From positions 1 to 64,000 of the forward strand of contig CANLMR010000007.1 of assembly GCA_947492185.1 (NCBI GenBank): 64,000 nt of DNA, in the 5' to 3' direction. This DNA comes from an uncultured Tenacibaculum sp. (GTDB lineage Bacteria > Bacteroidota > Bacteroidia > Flavobacteriales > Flavobacteriaceae). A program made the position numbers and the translations under genes. Shown here piece by piece: positions 1-19,905 of this stretch. Position 1 is the first letter of the stretch, and each line of letters begins with the position of its first letter. The notes under the pieces were generated by a model that had not been told where the DNA came from, searched no databases, and saw only the letters and a program-made list of their open reading frames with translations.

Positions 1-717
1 GGAGATGATGATATTTATAGTTTTGTTATCTACAGATGTAAAGAAGATATTGGAGGTTATGTAACGGATGTAAATACAGGTAAACCCATTTTAGGAGCCA
101 CAGTTCGATTAATAGATGAGAAAGGAATACCAGTTAGTGAGCAAGTAACACAGGCAGATGGAAAATATGCCTTTAAAGATATTGACTGTGAGAACAACTT
201 TACCGTAAGCGCTTCTAAGGATGATTACCGAAATGATCAAAAACAAACAGCCACAGAGGATGTTAATAAGAAAGAAATCAAAACAGATTTAGCCTTAGAA
301 TCGTTAATTGTTGAGAGTCCAGAGTCAGCACAGATTGTTATTAATCCGATATTCTTTGATTTTGATTTGTACAGCATTAGAAAAGATGCAGAATACGAGT
401 TAGAGCACATTGTAACGGTAATGAACAACAATCCAGATATGGTTATTAAGATTGAATCTCATACAGATAGTCGAGGAACAAAGGACTACAATAGAAACTT
501 ATCTGATAATAGAGCAAAATCAACAAGAGATTATATCATCTCAAGAGGTATTGAAGCCAATCGAATACAAAGTGCGATTGGGTATGGAGAAGACCGATTG
601 TTAAACCACTGTGATGATACGAATCAAAGCAAGTGTTCAAAGGAACAACATCAGAAGAATAGAAGATCCTATTTCTACATTGTAAAAGGCGGAAAAAACG
701 TTTCAATTTCTAATTAA
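1..717 (+). CDS. OmpA-family envelope protein, 3' part (N-terminus outside window)
   Basis: The frame is open from base 1, so only the last 238 codons are seen; the ORF-track start at 367 is internal. The visible part begins with a sequence like the end of a PD40/WD40-like repeat (GDDDIYSF). A carboxypeptidase-regulatory-like beta domain follows (GYVTDVNTGKPILGATV), then a C-terminal OmpA domain with IFFDFDLYSIR, the peptidoglycan-binding stretch IESHTDSRGTKDYN and NRRSYFYIV. In Bacteroidota, proteins with this layout are outer-membrane-associated peptidoglycan anchors, often next to PorP/SprF genes of gliding and type IX secretion. The partner gene is not visible, so that link is inference. 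The OmpA call is firm; the exact role is not. Confidence 0.9.
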   Translation, partial: GDDDIYSFVIYRCKEDIGGYVTDVNTGKPILGATVRLIDEKGIPVSEQVTQADGKYAFKDIDCENNFTVSASKDDYRNDQKQTATEDVNKKEIKTDLALESLIVESPESAQIVINPIFFDFDLYSIRKDAEYELEHIVTVMNNNPDMVIKIESHTDSRGTKDYNRNLSDNRAKSTRDYIISRGIEANRIQSAIGYGEDRLLNHCDDTNQSKCSKEQHQKNRRSYFYIVKGGKNVSISN

Positions 718-978: not shown

Positions 979-1590
979 TTAAAATAAGTCATTTAAAGAA
1001 ATTACGACTTTTTTATAAACATTAAAACTCAAAATTTTTCCTTCGTTAGTTCTTTTAATAAAAATTAAACCAAGATACTCTAGATGATTTATAATATTCC
1101 ATATTGTAGTATTGTAAGTATCATTTTTAAAAACATATTTATAAATTAAATCTTTTCGTTTGTACTTAATTATGCCTTTTAAAACCTCTAATTCTATTGG
1201 GAGTAATTCTTTCCAAACTTTGTTTTGAATTGCGTACTCAGTATTATATTGGTTTACTTTGTAAAGTTTATCCTTTTCATTTAGAAGTACTTTATACTCA
1301 TTACAATTGTTACAAATTCTATTGAAATTATTTATAACATATTCAAAGTTTACTCTAGTTTTTACTGAATATTTCCTTACCTGATTACATTTTTTACATT
1401 TATCGAATATTATTTCACAATAAGAATAACTTTTAACTATTTGAATGAGAAATGTAATATCAATATTAAAATGTTTACTTATTTTCAAATTAGTATTACT
1501 AAACTCCCCATTATTATACTCCCAGTATTTTTTAATAATACTCGTAGTAATTTTATCAATACCATCAGTAATATGTATGTTGTACTCCAT
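979..1590 (-). CDS. Hypothetical protein with two CxxC zinc-ribbon-like knuckles
   Basis: I do not recognise this 203-residue protein. It has two CxxC pairs about 30 residues apart (CKKCNQ and CNNCNE), the spacing of a zinc ribbon, then a lysine- and isoleucine-rich C-terminal half that could be a winged helix. The longer start at 1623 in the ORF track is unlikely: a flavobacterial -7 box (TATATTTG on the minus strand) lies at 1611-1618, inside that extension, which favours the ATG at 1590. It is transcribed divergently from an XRE regulator beside a recombinase trio, so it may be cargo or a regulator of the mobile region. There is no signal peptide, so it is probably cytoplasmic. Confidence 0.55.
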   Translation of the reverse strand: MEYNIHITDGIDKITTSIIKKYWEYNNGEFSNTNLKISKHFNIDITFLIQIVKSYSYCEIIFDKCKKCNQVRKYSVKTRVNFEYVINNFNRICNNCNEYKVLLNEKDKLYKVNQYNTEYAIQNKVWKELLPIELEVLKGIIKYKRKDLIYKYVFKNDTYNTTIWNIINHLEYLGLIFIKRTNEGKILSFNVYKKVVISLNDLF

Positions 1591-1610
1591 TTTATTTTGA
1601 CGAGTATACA

Positions 1611-1618
1611 CAAATATA
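1611..1618 (-). promoter_or_regulatory. Candidate -7 promoter box for the zinc-ribbon gene
   Basis: The minus strand reads TATATTTG, matching the Bacteroidota -7 consensus TAnnTTTG, about 20 bases before the ATG at 1590. I see no TTG -33 element at the right distance, so this is a moderate call. Confidence 0.4.
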
Positions 1619-1667
1619 GGCATATTTGCTTATAGGTTTATATGCCTTAAAAAAGAATTTAGCCCTA

Positions 1668-1895
1668 ATGACAGTTAGGGACGATAAATACATTATAGAA
1701 TTTGGTAAAAACTTGAGGAAGTTAAGAAAGAGTAAAAATATAACTCAAGAAAAATTAGCATTTTCTATTGGAATTGAAATATCTCAAATAAGTAGAATAG
1801 AAAGAGGTATAGTTAATACATCTATTTCAACTGTTAAAGCCATTTCCGATTCGCTTAAAATAGATATCAAGGAACTTTTTGACTTCGAATACTAA
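1668..1895 (+). CDS. XRE-family helix-turn-helix regulator (small)
   Basis: A 75-residue protein made almost entirely of one HTH_3/XRE domain: FGKNLRKLRKSKNITQEKLA, then ISQISRIERG and a C-terminal DIKELFDF. Such Cro/CI-like proteins bind operator DNA as dimers and commonly control mobile elements or restriction systems. I prefer the ATG at 1668 to the TTG at 1626 because the XRE domain starts directly after it. It is divergent from the zinc-ribbon gene and about 200 bp upstream of the recombinase trio, so either could be its target (inference). Confidence 0.8.
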   Translation: MTVRDDKYIIEFGKNLRKLRKSKNITQEKLAFSIGIEISQISRIERGIVNTSISTVKAISDSLKIDIKELFDFEY

Positions 1896-2098: not shown

Positions 2099-3364
2099 AT
2101 GCAAAAGAAGATTTTAAAGTTTAATCTATTAATTATAAATGCGAAACAATACCTTCGAAATGAACTTCGTTATTCATTTTCTTCAGCTCAGACATATACT
2201 CTTGTTTGGAAACATTTAAGGAAGTTTATGTTTGAAAATGGTCATTATGATTACAATGATAGTATTGGTGAAAAATTTTTGAGGTTTAAGTTTGGTGAAA
2301 GTAAATGGGATAATTTAAATCGTAATCAGAGAACCTTTTTTAATGGAATTAAAATGATAGGTGATTTTCAAAAAACAAACAAAATAAATTTTCCAGAAAA
2401 AAAGTCTAAATATCCATTAAAATTTGAAGGAGATATAGGAACAATAATGTTAGAGTTTTTAAAAGACAAAGAAAAATTAAACCCTTCAAGATGCACATAT
2501 AATTCTTATCAACGTTCACTATTTACATTAAGTGCATACTGTAACCAAAAAGGTATTATTAAAATAGAGAATATTGATTTAGCTCTAATTTTGAATTTCA
2601 TTCAAGATGTAAAATTAGAAAAAACAGCAATATCAATATTGATAACGGCTTTAAGAAGTTTTATCAAATTCCTTTATGATAAGAATTATATAAACTATAA
2701 TTATTCAAAGAAAATACCAAGCTATAAACTTGTCAATCAACCTAAACTTCCTTCAAATTATTCTGAGGATGAAATTGAAAAGCTTATAAATTCTATCAAC
2801 AGAGCTAGTTCTATAGGGAAACGGAATTATGTAATTGTATTATTAGCGGCCAGATTAGGTTTAAGAGCATCAGATATAAGTAGACTAAGGTTTGAGCATT
2901 TACAATGGGAAACTAATAGGATTATTTTTCAACAACATAAAACTGGAAAACAGCTAATACTACCTTTGCTTCCGGATATAGGGAATGCTATAATTGATTA
3001 CTTAAAACATGGAAGACCAACCTCAGAGGAACCTTATATTTTACTTACAGCTAGAGCTCCTTACGGTAGATTTACAACCTCTAACGTTGTTACTCATGTA
3101 GTCCAAAGAGCTATGTGCAAAGCAGGAATAAATACGAGTGGTAGGAGATTTGGTCCTCATTCACTGAGGCATAGTCTTGGACTTCGTCTATTAGAGAAAA
3201 ATACTGTTTTACCAGTAATTTCAGAAGTGTTGGGTCATAAAGACACGAAAAGTACAAGATACTATCTAAGAATAGATTTAAAATCACTAACACAGTGTAT
3301 TCTTGATGTGCCAAAAGTAACAGAGGGGTTTTACAATCAGGAAGGAGGTAAATTCTATGGTTGA
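2099..3364 (+). CDS. Tyrosine recombinase, first of a recombinase trio (RitA-like)
   Basis: A 421-residue site-specific recombinase of the phage-integrase family. An N-terminal SAM-like core-binding region (about residues 110-200) precedes the catalytic domain. The active-site set looks complete: Arg256 in RLGLRASD, the Lys region HKTGK at about 280-284, HSLRH at 354-358, His380 in VLGHKD and the nucleophile Tyr388 or Tyr389. The gene overlaps the next recombinase by 8 bases, and a third follows with another overlap. Three consecutive overlapping tyrosine recombinases of about 420, 325 and 340 residues are the hallmark of RIT elements. Tn554-like elements (tnpA/tnpB/tnpC) are the alternative, but in those the third protein is not an integrase. 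No truncation is seen, so the gene looks functional. Confidence 0.9.
   Translation: MQKKILKFNLLIINAKQYLRNELRYSFSSAQTYTLVWKHLRKFMFENGHYDYNDSIGEKFLRFKFGESKWDNLNRNQRTFFNGIKMIGDFQKTNKINFPEKKSKYPLKFEGDIGTIMLEFLKDKEKLNPSRCTYNSYQRSLFTLSAYCNQKGIIKIENIDLALILNFIQDVKLEKTAISILITALRSFIKFLYDKNYINYNYSKKIPSYKLVNQPKLPSNYSEDEIEKLINSINRASSIGKRNYVIVLLAARLGLRASDISRLRFEHLQWETNRIIFQQHKTGKQLILPLLPDIGNAIIDYLKHGRPTSEEPYILLTARAPYGRFTTSNVVTHVVQRAMCKAGINTSGRRFGPHSLRHSLGLRLLEKNTVLPVISEVLGHKDTKSTRYYLRIDLKSLTQCILDVPKVTEGFYNQEGGKFYG
3342..3349 (+). promoter_or_regulatory. Strong Shine-Dalgarno sequence for the second recombinase
   Basis: AAGGAGGT ends 7 bases before the ATG at 3357, inside the last codons of the first recombinase. 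Flavobacterial genes seldom use such a sequence and most genes in this window have none. It sets the start of the second recombinase and hints that the trio came from elsewhere, although its bases also encode QEGG of the upstream protein. Confidence 0.65.
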
Positions 3365-4334
3365 AAATTTTCATAGCGTATACGCTGAGTATTTGAAACA
3401 GTTTATAAGTTTTAAGCGCAAGCTTGGTTTCAAGTTTAAAGCTGAAGCCTTTCTTTTAAAAAAAATTGATGAGGCTGCTTTAGAAACTAATCAATCATCC
3501 TCAGGTATAACTAAATCATTCGCAGATATAATTAGGAAGAAAAAACCAAATGAAGGATGGCAATATCGACAACGCAGAATATCTGTTTTAGCGATGTTTT
3601 CCTCTTACCTTAATGATATTGGAATAGATTCTTACATACCCAAAGTTCCTCCCTGTAAAAATAAGGAATATCTACCATACATCTTTTCTCAAAATGAAAT
3701 TAATACAATATTTAATGAATGTGATCAGTATAAATTAATAAGAAGACATCCATATAATAATTTATTTATTATGCCTGCATTGCTTAGGTTACTATACGCA
3801 ACAGGAATAAGATTTGGAGAAGCTATAAACTTAAAAGATGCAGACGTTGATCTCGAAGATAATTATTTATTAATTAAAGATTCAAAAAATGGAAAAGAAA
3901 GAATTATTCCAATTTCTTATTCTTTATCAGACGTATTAAAAGAGTATTTATGGTTTAGAAATTATCTTCCTAAAAACAAAAACAACTATTTTTTTATCGG
4001 TGTAAGTGGAAATAAATGTAACCAAAGTATAAGAGTTTGGTTCAAAAAAATTCTTGAGCGTTCAAATATTCAATATTTAGGGAAAAATAAAGGGCCCAGA
4101 GTTCATGATTTAAGACATACTTTTGCCGTGAATTCTTTAGTTAAAATGGTAGAAGCTGGTTTAGATTTGTATGTTTCATTACCTATATTATCTACTTATT
4201 TAGGCCATCAATCTATTAAATCTACAAATAAATATGTAAGATTAACTTCTATGTTATTTCCAGATTTAATGAATGATATTGATTATTCCTTAATTGATGT
4301 GTTTCCTAAATTCAAAAATTATGAACCCAACTGA
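3357..4334 (+). CDS. Tyrosine recombinase, second of the trio (RitB-like)
   Basis: A 325-residue phage-integrase-family recombinase. Catalytic residues are visible: Arg152 in YATGIRFGE, HDLRH at 250-254, His284 in YLGHQS and Tyr293 in NKYVRL. It starts within the end of the preceding recombinase (8-base overlap, good Shine-Dalgarno) and overlaps the next one by 14 bases, so the three are almost certainly cotranscribed and translationally coupled. In RIT elements the second recombinase is also the shortest, as here. The role (cleavage, or an accessory partner in excision and insertion of the element) is inferred from the family. Confidence 0.9.
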   Translation: MVENFHSVYAEYLKQFISFKRKLGFKFKAEAFLLKKIDEAALETNQSSSGITKSFADIIRKKKPNEGWQYRQRRISVLAMFSSYLNDIGIDSYIPKVPPCKNKEYLPYIFSQNEINTIFNECDQYKLIRRHPYNNLFIMPALLRLLYATGIRFGEAINLKDADVDLEDNYLLIKDSKNGKERIIPISYSLSDVLKEYLWFRNYLPKNKNNYFFIGVSGNKCNQSIRVWFKKILERSNIQYLGKNKGPRVHDLRHTFAVNSLVKMVEAGLDLYVSLPILSTYLGHQSIKSTNKYVRLTSMLFPDLMNDIDYSLIDVFPKFKNYEPN

Positions 4335-5334
4335 TTTCTCTAAATACATTTCAGACTTTCTGTCAAACTATTTAACTGATGAGAGAGGAGCATCTATTAA
4401 TACTATTAAAGCGTATAGAGATACTTTTGTTTTATTACTGCACTTTATGGAGAAAGAGAGAAAAATAAAACTTAATAAATTAAAAATTAAAGATATAAAT
4501 AAAGATACCATAACATCCTTTTTAAATTGGCTAGAGTATAATAGGAGTTGTAGTATTTCAACTCGTAATTCACGTTTAGCTGCAATTCATTCATTTTATA
4601 AGTTTTTGCAGTACAGAGAGTTGGGGCATATTTATGATTGCCAAAAAATTCTTTCCATTAAGCAAAAAAGAAGTCCTCAGCTTATAATGTCTTATTTAAC
4701 AATTGAGGGGATTAAGTCATTATTAAAACAGCCCGATCTAAATACCAAAAAAGGAAGAAGAGATTTAGCTTTATTATCTTTAATGTATGATACTGGAGCA
4801 AGAGTTCAAGAAATTATTGACCTTACACCATCTATGATTAATCTTAATAATCCTCCTACTATAAAAATTATTGGTAAAGGAAATAAGTCAAGATTAGTTC
4901 CAATGATTAATGCACAAACTCTACATCTTAAAAACTATATATTAGAACATCAATTGGATTCTCCTGTTAATTTATTACATCCGCTATTTACTAATAATAG
5001 AGGAGAAAAGTTAACTAGATCAGGTGTGAATTATATATTAAAGAAATATTTAACCAAAGCAAGAAGTATAGAGCCATCAATAATACCCGAAAATATATCT
5101 TGTCATTCAATTAGACATTCAAAAGCAATGCATTTATTGCAGTCAGGTGTTAATTTAGTTTATATCAGAGATATATTGGGTCATGTATCTATACAAACAA
5201 CCGAAATTTACGCAAGAGCAGATTCTAAGTTTAAACGTTTAGCTTTAGAAAAAGCATACTCTAAATTAATACCAGAGGAAGAACCGTTATGGCATAAAAA
5301 TAAAAATTTAATAACTTGGTTGAAAAAATTCTAA
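4321..5334 (+). CDS. Tyrosine recombinase, third of the trio (RitC-like)
   Basis: A 337-residue XerC/D-like recombinase. The N-terminal core-binding domain (residues 5-100) has the usual SxNTIKAYRDT pattern. Catalytic residues are Arg161 in YDTGARVQE, Lys around 186 in IIGKGNKS, HSIRH at 262-266, His288 in ILGHVS and Tyr297 in TEIYAR. I place the start at the ATG at 4321 because the domain begins there; the track start at 4294 only adds out-of-family residues. It overlaps the second gene by 14 bases. Just behind its stop is an array of short inverted repeats that is probably the end of the element. Confidence 0.9.
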   Translation: MNPTDFSKYISDFLSNYLTDERGASINTIKAYRDTFVLLLHFMEKERKIKLNKLKIKDINKDTITSFLNWLEYNRSCSISTRNSRLAAIHSFYKFLQYRELGHIYDCQKILSIKQKRSPQLIMSYLTIEGIKSLLKQPDLNTKKGRRDLALLSLMYDTGARVQEIIDLTPSMINLNNPPTIKIIGKGNKSRLVPMINAQTLHLKNYILEHQLDSPVNLLHPLFTNNRGEKLTRSGVNYILKKYLTKARSIEPSIIPENISCHSIRHSKAMHLLQSGVNLVYIRDILGHVSIQTTEIYARADSKFKRLALEKAYSKLIPEEEPLWHKNKNLITWLKKF

Positions 5335-5340
5335 TAATTA

Positions 5341-5448
5341 TTATGTAAAGTAAATTTCAATAAAGTTTAGTAATAATCTTATATAGAGAAGTTTTATACA
5401 CATAATGTTTTACTTTGCATAATGAAATTTATGCAAAGCTTTACATAA
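5341..5448. repeat. Inverted-repeat array at the right end of the recombinase trio
   Basis: A 10-base motif occurs four times: TTATGTAAAG at 5341-5350, its variant CTTTGCATAA inverted at 5413-5422, TTATGCAAAG at 5429-5438 and CTTTACATAA inverted at 5439-5448. In addition TAAATTTCA at 5351-5359 is the exact reverse complement of 5423-5431. The arrangement looks like paired recombinase binding sites around a crossover core. This is direct observation; the attachment-site role is inference. Confidence 0.7.
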
Positions 5449-5449
5449 T

Positions 5450-5611
5450 TGTCATAACCATCCTTCTGGTAATGTTAAGCCAAGCAATTCAGATATTAAA
5501 CTTACCCAGCAAATAAAAGAAGCTGGTATAACACTTAACATAAAATTGCTTGATCATATAATAGTTAGTAAAAAGAAGTATTTTAGCTTTGCAGATGAAG
5601 CAATTTTATAA
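5450..5611 (+). pseudogene. radC: Truncated radC (C-terminal MPN/JAB domain fragment)
   Basis: Too fragmentary for the ORF track. Translation from 5450 gives CHNHPSGNVKPS, the metal-binding HxH and downstream serine region of RadC/JAMM proteins. It continues through LTQQIKEAG and LLDHIIVSKK to SFADEAIL and a TAA at 5609-5611, the normal RadC C-terminus. Homology stops abruptly on the 5' side at the last inverted repeat of the recombinase element. The N-terminal half of radC is not seen to the left of the trio, so the gene is broken and probably also lost sequence. The stop lies 9 bases before the next gene, suggesting an old radC-deacetylase gene pair. Confidence 0.85.
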
Positions 5612-19170: not shown

Positions 19171-19905
19171 TTATAATGTGAACTGCGCAGAATAATTTCC
19201 TCCGTAATTCCCAGATAAATCGATTAAAGTTGCACCATTTGCTGTTAAAACATAAGCAGTACCACCATCTCCATAACCATCAAAAGCTTGGAATGTATAA
19301 GTACCATTTGGTAAACAATTTACAAGATCTAAAGATCCAGTGAAATCTGTGTAAGCACCGAATGCTAAAGGATCATTACTAGCCATAACAGCAGCACCTG
19401 AAGCATCTAAAATTCTCCAAGCAGCTTCTTCTGGCCAGTCATCAAAAGTAATAGTTAATTTAGCTTTTGTTTCTCCATCAGGACAAGATTGAGACATAGG
19501 AATAACTAAATCTTCACCAACATTTAAACCACTAGTTTGAGTAAGTCTTAAAACTAATTTCTTTTCTGTTGTTAAATCTAAATTAATACTAGTAAAATCG
19601 ATATTAAATTTAGCCTCATTACTATTAGCAGGAATAGTAATGCTAGAAGGTACACTATAAGAAGCTGGATCAGCATCAGTATCTTCAGTAACCATAATAT
19701 CAATTACTCTATCAGAACCTGTTTTATTTGCAGTAAAAATTGTAATCTCTTTAGTCTCTTGAGCTCCGTCAGGAAGACTTACTACAACGGCATCACTAGC
19801 AAATGTCGCAAATGCTGGAGCGTCAAAGTCATCAATTGTATCTTTACAACTATTTAAAGTAGCTAAACCTAAAGCAGCTACTAAAAGTAATTTTATGTTT
19901 TTCAT
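19171..19905 (-). CDS. Surface lipoprotein accompanying SusC/SusD (hypothetical)
   Basis: A 244-residue protein with lipoprotein signal MKNIKLLLVAALGLATLNSC. A beta-sandwich-like region follows (EITIFTANKTGSDRVIDIMV, ITIPANSNEAKFNIDFT), then a C-terminal module with CLPNGTYTFQAFDGYGDGG, a pattern seen in secreted Bacteroidota proteins. It is 61 bp downstream of a SusD gene and ends at a terminator, so it is the last gene of that uptake operon and may be a surface substrate-binding or accessory lipoprotein (inference). Confidence 0.75.
   Translation of the reverse strand: MKNIKLLLVAALGLATLNSCKDTIDDFDAPAFATFASDAVVVSLPDGAQETKEITIFTANKTGSDRVIDIMVTEDTDADPASYSVPSSITIPANSNEAKFNIDFTSINLDLTTEKKLVLRLTQTSGLNVGEDLVIPMSQSCPDGETKAKLTITFDDWPEEAAWRILDASGAAVMASNDPLAFGAYTDFTGSLDLVNCLPNGTYTFQAFDGYGDGGTAYVLTANGATLIDLSGNYGGNYSAQFTL

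Follow-up and report, generated by a model that had tools for sequence, protein, structure and literature searches.

What is the cluster of short inverted repeats that lies between the last gene of a recombinase trio and a truncated radC gene in an uncultured Tenacibaculum species? The cluster occupies positions 5341–5448 of a 64,000-nucleotide stretch of DNA that was analysed as a whole (contig CANLMR010000007.1; hereafter, the window), and a first-pass annotation had read it as a composite attachment end for the recombinases of a RIT (recombinase in trio) element. RITs, such as those of Cupriavidus metallidurans CH34 and plasmid pHG1, carry adjacent, overlapping ritA, ritB and ritC genes and measure about 3.5 kb (PMC3414803). 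The evidence set out here indicates that the array forms the right-hand attachment end of a cargo-carrying RIT, about 20.6 kb long, with radC as its insertion site, a reading to which we give a probability of roughly 0.8.

Four TTATGYAAAG-type decamers were found exactly where they had been annotated: TTATGTAAAG at 5341 (+ strand, exact), TTATGCAAAG at 5413–5422 (− strand), TTATGCAAAG at 5429 (+ strand) and TTATGTAAAG at 5439–5448 (− strand, exact). The window holds 22 such decamers in total (at most one mismatch, both strands), every other 120-bp stretch of it contains at most one, and 2000 shuffles of positions 5335–5454 gave a mean of 0.055 decamers with a maximum of two; the array is thus far above chance. 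An inverted TAAATTTCA pair (5351 and 5423) that had also been pointed out was dismissed as coincidence, since the second position reads TGAAGCTTA in the sister species. Read outward, the decamer at 5341–5350 is followed by two further decamers, D2 and D1, the spacer TGAAAT, a 20-bp palindrome (5429–5448) that forms the outer portion of the annotated array, the hexamer TTGTCA and then the codons of radC (Table 1). As annotated, the array stops at the radC junction and marks the boundary of the element at the nucleotide level, the last decamer ending at 5448.

When the same genome was searched with the trio region, a second site was recovered on contig C13, an inverted copy of 86 bp with 92% identity, which directly follows the N-terminal half of radC (C13:30776–30988, PF04002 positions 1–71). 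Six relatives carry a single intact radC between trkH-trkA and a polysaccharide-deacetylase-like gene, and in the genome under study these same neighbours sit on the outer sides of the two radC halves. Taken together, the inverted copy, the radC halves and the outer neighbours identify the array and its copy as the two ends of one insertion, with radC as its target as had been proposed. Rejoining the halves with a single TTGTCA yields an uninterrupted RadC frame that counts 228 codons from its Met and has the exchange point at codon 176, and intact RadC frames are likewise restored in Tenacibaculum skagerrakense (genome G035, locus L083), in which the same radC split and both ends are present, and in Flavobacterium microcysteis. 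The array is not local noise, because its inverted copy adjoins the other radC half and both ends recur in T. skagerrakense. No relative was found that keeps the array at radC in the absence of the recombinases: the six relatives have an intact radC in the expected gene order, and a scan of 168 genomes of the genus detected the 20-bp palindrome in two, both with the trio. Solo palindromes that could represent excision scars were absent from the 166 other genomes, and the idea that the palindrome was already part of radC before the insertion was discarded, as the intact radC of the six relatives contains none.

The first-pass annotation had sought the left end just upstream of the trio, at 2043 or 2076. 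Both of these are decamers with two mismatches, and an inverted-repeat search against shuffles gave no signal above background. The true left end is on the other contig, upstream of ritA at a distance of about 17.3 kb and with cargo in between, and the element is not limited to the trio as had been assumed. An array directly 3′ of ritC that contains a palindrome might also be taken for a transcription terminator or regulatory repeat of ritC, next to radC by accident, but no recombinase gene lies anywhere near the inverted copy at the other radC half, and RITs of different phyla have this structure beside ritA or ritC, which leaves this explanation with next to no credibility.

The three recombinases show 29, 32 and 45% identity to RitA, RitB and RitC of pHG1, respectively, in RIT order, and up to 56, 55 and 68% identity to those of other RIT loci when the T. 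skagerrakense copy is left aside. Residues R152-H250-R253-H284-Y293 of RitB are invariant in a six-way alignment, as are R161-H262-R265-H288-Y297 of RitC in its alignment, while the R-H-R-H-Y residues of RitA were assigned by eye only. Three adjacent, co-oriented and overlapping recombinase genes, arranged in Rit order and bounded by RIT-type terminal inverted repeats, uphold the annotated assignment to the RIT type. The usual size of about 3.5 kb without other genes is not matched by an element of about 20.6 kb with five extra genes; the element is a cargo-bearing RIT variant, and the 3.5 kb describe the size of the known members, not the mechanism.

Given the target and the cargo, an element of the Tn554 or GInt type, specific for radC, helped by TnpC or GinD and unrelated to RITs, was also considered. 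Tn554-like transposons use a conserved radC site, bear cargo and leave 6-bp junctions (PMC3788773; PMC10214605), and the Tn554 family (Tn554, Tn558, Tn6188) resembles the present element as a cargo-bearing tyrosine recombinase transposon with such a site and such junctions (PMC3788773). GInts share three tyrosine recombinases at one end of a cargo island and a 6-nt staggered exchange (PMC5385486). Tn554, however, has two tyrosine recombinases, TnpA and TnpB, together with TnpC, whereas all three proteins encoded here are homologues of RitA, RitB and RitC and the end sequences are different. GInts, for their part, have a ginABCD operon with GinD, whereas here the ends are long inverted repeats and ritC, whose stop at 5334 lies 6 bp before the terminal repeat starting at 5340, leaves no room for a fourth gene, TnpC- or GinD-like; the helix-turn-helix (HTH) gene of the element is of the Cro/C1 type. 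We therefore regard a Tn554- or GInt-type origin as very improbable.

The size of the insert was calculated as 13,442 + about 1,756 + 5,448 bp, the middle term being the gap between C13 and the window, which corresponds to 1756 bp of T. skagerrakense contig C2. No overlap between the contig ends of C13 and C7 was found and the gap is bridged only via T. skagerrakense, whose contig C2 contains, without a break, the end of the adhesin, PorP/SprF, OmpA, the genes for the 214-aa and HTH proteins and the trio before it enters radC. The T. skagerrakense assembly, in turn, is interrupted within adhesin repeats that C13 covers, and each assembly's gap is thus spanned by a contig of the other. Five non-recombinase genes lie between the ends: a giant adhesin of the type IX secretion system with Ig-like and PKD-like domains and a CHU_C type IX sorting domain, followed by PorP/SprF and OmpA genes, a gene for a 214-aa protein without a match in Pfam, NCBIfam or PADLOC, and the HTH gene. 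The OmpA gene is the last of the adhesin–PorP/SprF–OmpA cluster, most of the remainder of which is located on C13. In another Tenacibaculum genome, which lacks RitC, the same cluster is present at 90–95% identity; the homology starts about 255 bp inside the left terminal repeat and stops at window position 704, limits that, judged by this comparison, mark a captured module. In the single-contig, RIT-free Tenacibaculum genome G130 (G130:C1; L181–L185), three near-identical PorP/SprF–OmpA copies were seen near 1030000–1069000 and 2275000–2294900, one of them with the full adhesin cluster.

Table 1. Features of the RIT element and of its radC junction in the window (positions of the window).
Feature	Position	Strand	Evidence
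OmpA-family gene (PD40 + OmpA), 3′ part, cargo	1..717	+	Pfam OmpA/PD40; 95% identical to T. skagerrakense OmpA gene
214-aa protein between cargo and trio	979..1623	−	96% identical in T. skagerrakense
HTH_3 (Cro/C1-type) regulator	1668..1895	+	Pfam PF01381, E=3.8e-14
ritA, tyrosine recombinase 1	2099..3364	+	PF00589; 29–56% to RitA of other RIT loci (T. skagerrakense copy, 95%, aside)
ritB, tyrosine recombinase 2	3357..4334	+	PF00589; overlaps ritA by 8 bp; 32% to pHG1 RitB
ritC, tyrosine recombinase 3	4321..5334	+	PF00589; overlaps ritB by 14 bp; 45% to pHG1 RitC
86-bp terminal inverted repeat, right copy	5340..5425	+	92% identity to left copy C13:30985–31070 (−); alignment of four ends
Inner decamer TTATGTAAAG, inward-facing	5341..5350	+	Also present at inner edge of left copy
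D2, degenerate second decamer (TTATGTGTAT read inward)	5396..5405	−	7 bp from D1
D1, outer decamer TTATGCAAAG, RIT right end proper	5413..5422	−	End alignment
Inner 6-bp spacer TGAAAT (reverse complement ATTTCA)	5423..5428	+	Ends in CA like all radC-family spacers
20-bp palindrome, TTATGCAAAG followed by CTTTACATAA	5429..5448		Same place in dozens of RIT loci; absent from 166/168 genus genomes
TTGTCA, putative 6-bp crossover sequence	5449..5454	+	Common to left junction, C13:30982–30987
C-terminal half of radC (NHPSG... to stop)	5455..5611	+	PF04002 positions 71–119; rejoining with C13 gives full RadC frame

Did the whole 20.6-kb block move, or was cargo added to a resident element? Under the latter scenario, a bare 3.5-kb RIT would have entered radC first and the adhesin cluster would later have been placed between the left end and ritA, leaving a passive block that is immobile as a unit. 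Most RITs are indeed bare, the cluster occurs at 90–95% identity in a RIT-free Tenacibaculum with its last genes in three copies, and the start of the adhesin is patchy between the two species (75–95%). Yet both species have the same cargo inside the same ends, and these are more alike than the right flank: in 500-bp windows, the part of the element located in the window is 91–97% identical between the two Tenacibaculum species versus 69–85% for the right flank, the left side being patchier (75–95% inside the element, 75–86% outside). In addition, the inner 6-mers of the two sister elements (ATTTCA and GCTTCA) differ at three of six positions although the elements are about 95% identical, which suggests separate insertions of a loaded element. 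The palindromes of the two (window 5429–5448 and L036:6204–6223) are exact reverse complements of each other, so the palindrome may have been inverted with respect to the rest of the element. The identity of element versus flank, the differing inner 6-mers and the reverse-complementary palindromes together favour separate arrivals of the element over one inherited insertion, with the reservation that two species are few.

Other RITs also hold other cargo between intact ends. In F. microcysteis (L139), a 12.2-kb RIT, the far end of which is at locus position 19686, splits radC and carries OloA and OloB of the Olokun defence system together with two HNH proteins (L139:11122–18968). In Mucilaginibacter endophyticus (L106/L175; G560:C25:562220–573440), an 11.2-kb RIT interrupts a comM-like gene at the Walker A motif and contains a type IIG restriction-methyltransferase and a PDC-M70A-like nucleotidyltransferase. 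Cargo is therefore not peculiar to the element in the window, and we consider the passive-block scenario unlikely.

The ends were then compared with those of the RIT family at large, using the loci from a scan of 85,462 species genomes, which returned at least 80 RitC loci; as these loci are related, their counts do not equal independent events. Bare elements of about 3.5 kb are the majority in this sample, many loci being contigs or units of 3.4–3.6 kb with inverted repeats about 110–130 bp before ritA and 70–110 bp after ritC. Alignment with the ends of related RITs, a check suggested in the first-pass annotation, revealed a common paired-decamer end, TTATGNAAAG-7 bp-TTATGNAAAG, inverted at both ends, with the 7-bp spacing present in 90 of 108 RIT ends. 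The element in the window conforms to this consensus with D1-7-D2 at both ends, D2 being degenerate, and these matching ends, along with the inverted copy, bear out the proposed composite attachment end. A 20-bp palindrome, TTATGNAAAG followed by CTTTNCATAA, is often located exactly 6 bp outside one end and is followed by another 6 bp and then by the broken target gene. Among the 53 loci for which both ends were found, the palindrome was present on one side in 31, on both sides in four and on neither in 18, several of the latter being either TTATCC-type RITs or contigs without sequence beyond the element ends.

Some further observations concern individual loci. A RIT subgroup with TTATCCAAAG decamers keeps the 7-bp spacing and lacks the palindrome; two loci, L079 and L153, are both inserted beside the same CACGACTCGTGATAA flank, and L079 seems to interrupt an exbD-like gene. 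In L089, L095, L099, L128, L133, L154 and L161, both flanks are long inverted copies (about 100–280 bp) of the same target-gene half, as if two oppositely oriented RITs had recombined, and in four of these loci (L095, L099, L128 and L161) each side bears the palindrome. An apparent transposase gene at L105:16661 contains a solitary 20-bp palindrome of the RIT type, possibly an excision scar.

In insertions into the HNHPSG-coding motif of radC, the palindrome is downstream in the genome under study, in T. skagerrakense and in L085, L086, L088, L090, L091, L092, L094 and L139. The trio is reversed in L090 and L139 and the palindrome is still on the HNHPSG side, as it is in every radC insertion where a palindrome was detected, with both trio orientations. 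The same applies to insertions into IS66 genes at the GRKNYLFAG motif, where the palindrome is downstream in L098, L100, L105, L107, L109 and L114 in both trio orientations, and, as far as seen, the palindrome side is also constant within each of the other target families, namely the IstA-like (KGKIE), the IS4-like (FFKWIKQ) and the P-loops of IstB-like and ComM proteins. In KGGTSL- and LAELY-type targets, the palindrome is upstream. A general rule that it is always downstream in the target gene was ruled out by the upstream cases L123, L147 and L149; the rule holds per target family. For L092, L095, L099, L125, L128 and L161, in which automated orientation was unreliable (wrong frame or inverted flanks), orientation was judged from the flanks. 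As the palindrome keeps one side per target family with either trio orientation, its side is dictated by the target and not by the direction of the element.

The inner 6-mer, read in the direction of the core, is identical to the present target 6-mer in many loci, and in the others it retains the signature of the target family: the last two bases are CA, with which the His codon begins, in 10 of 10 inner 6-mers of radC loci, and GG, with which the Gly codon begins, in all six clean IS66 cases. Most simply, the inner 6-mer would have been acquired when the element earlier inserted into a gene of that family. The ten labelled radC inserts all fall within one 14-row clade of the RitC tree (98/88). 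The other four rows are two contigs without flanks, L089, which judging from its sequence is flanked by two inverted copies of the radC N-terminal half, and L093, a true exception. When target labels were shuffled on the tree, in which the label "other" is a mixed bag, radC, IS66 or IS4 inserts were never as clustered as observed.

These features can be accommodated in a mechanism in which the three tyrosine recombinases would read the paired decamers at both ends and strand exchange would take place at the 6-bp sequence in the HNHPSG-coding motif of radC, from codon 176 onward. The excised element would form a circle whose junction consists of right end, 6 bp, palindrome, 6 bp and left end, for which the sequence CTTTGCATAA-6 bp-palindrome-6 bp-TTATGTAAAG is predicted. 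Such a junction would hold two oppositely facing crossover sites, either of which could be used, so that the palindrome would keep its side of the target whereas the element could lie in either orientation, and the unused 6 bp would stay behind as a fossil record of an earlier target. Two opposed crossover sites in a circle would explain the polarity, the occurrence of both orientations and the fossil 6-mer together. The two ends, the split and restorable radC, the TTGTCA common to both junctions, the recurrent sequence of end, 6 bp, palindrome and 6 bp, the target-fixed palindrome side and the cargo between the ends are read directly from the DNA, and the circle, the two-site reaction, the pairing of recombinases with decamers and any present-day activity are inferred. 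If extended to RITs in general, the model would describe cargo-capable elements with a circular site in which a palindrome lies between two opposed 6-bp crossovers, with a fixed target polarity, an idle site that becomes a fossil, and three recombinases for three classes of decamers (outer end, inner end and palindrome); we advance this extended proposal tentatively and with less than even confidence.

Several points weigh against a mobile 20.6-kb element of this kind. In the comparative sequence data, no circle, excision product or transposition was observed, and the whole insert is spanned by no single contig in either Tenacibaculum. The cargo could have joined a resident RIT in another way, given that the cluster exists RIT-free in another member of the genus. 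The palindrome is not universal, as TTATCC-type RITs (L079, L151, L153) lack it. Finally, the inner 6 bp (ATTTCA; GCTTCA in the sister) deviate from the present target at two to three of six positions, and neither version encodes the usual C, S or A before His.

RITs that interrupt radC and IS66 genes have been reported before (PMC2864759, PMC3414803): C. metallidurans has RITs in radC and in an IS66 gene, one each, and Bordetella petrii has one in radC (PMC2864759). Their ends were described as a 28–29 bp inverted repeat with an overlapping palindromic sequence, the fit of which to normal recombinase sites was judged poor (PMC3414803). A comparison from 2023 gave the target specificity, empty sites and movement of RITs as untested, and laboratory RIT transposition had not been reproduced at that time (PMC10214605). 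The element described here shares with known RITs the three overlapping recombinase genes, the terminal inverted repeats and a palindrome flanking the trio, and differs from them in its size (about 20.6 kb with cargo versus about 3.5 kb; PMC3414803). Strand-biased circularizing integrative elements (SEs) also have imperfect inverted repeats around a 6-bp spacer and carry 6 bp of the old site (PMC10214605), but they possess two recombinases together with Tfp and Srap, and a palindrome with a second 6-bp spacer has not been described for them. A literature search that did not cover Ricker et al. 2013 returned no report of RIT cargo, of an end consensus, of a target-fixed palindrome or of an inner 6-bp record. 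Provisionally, the cargo and the polar attachment structure thus appear new, whereas RITs, and RITs in radC and IS66, were already known.

The locus and its relatives supply exact ends, an exact 6-bp exchange point and target motifs (radC, IS66, IstA/IstB-like, IS4-like and comM) for RITs, and they offer a testable reason for the presence of three recombinases. RITs with defence and surface-protein genes between their ends are shown here, and where a trio is at present annotated as lone recombinases, it may be the border of an island that has gone unnoticed. The ends themselves suggest how RIT elements choose and remember their targets.
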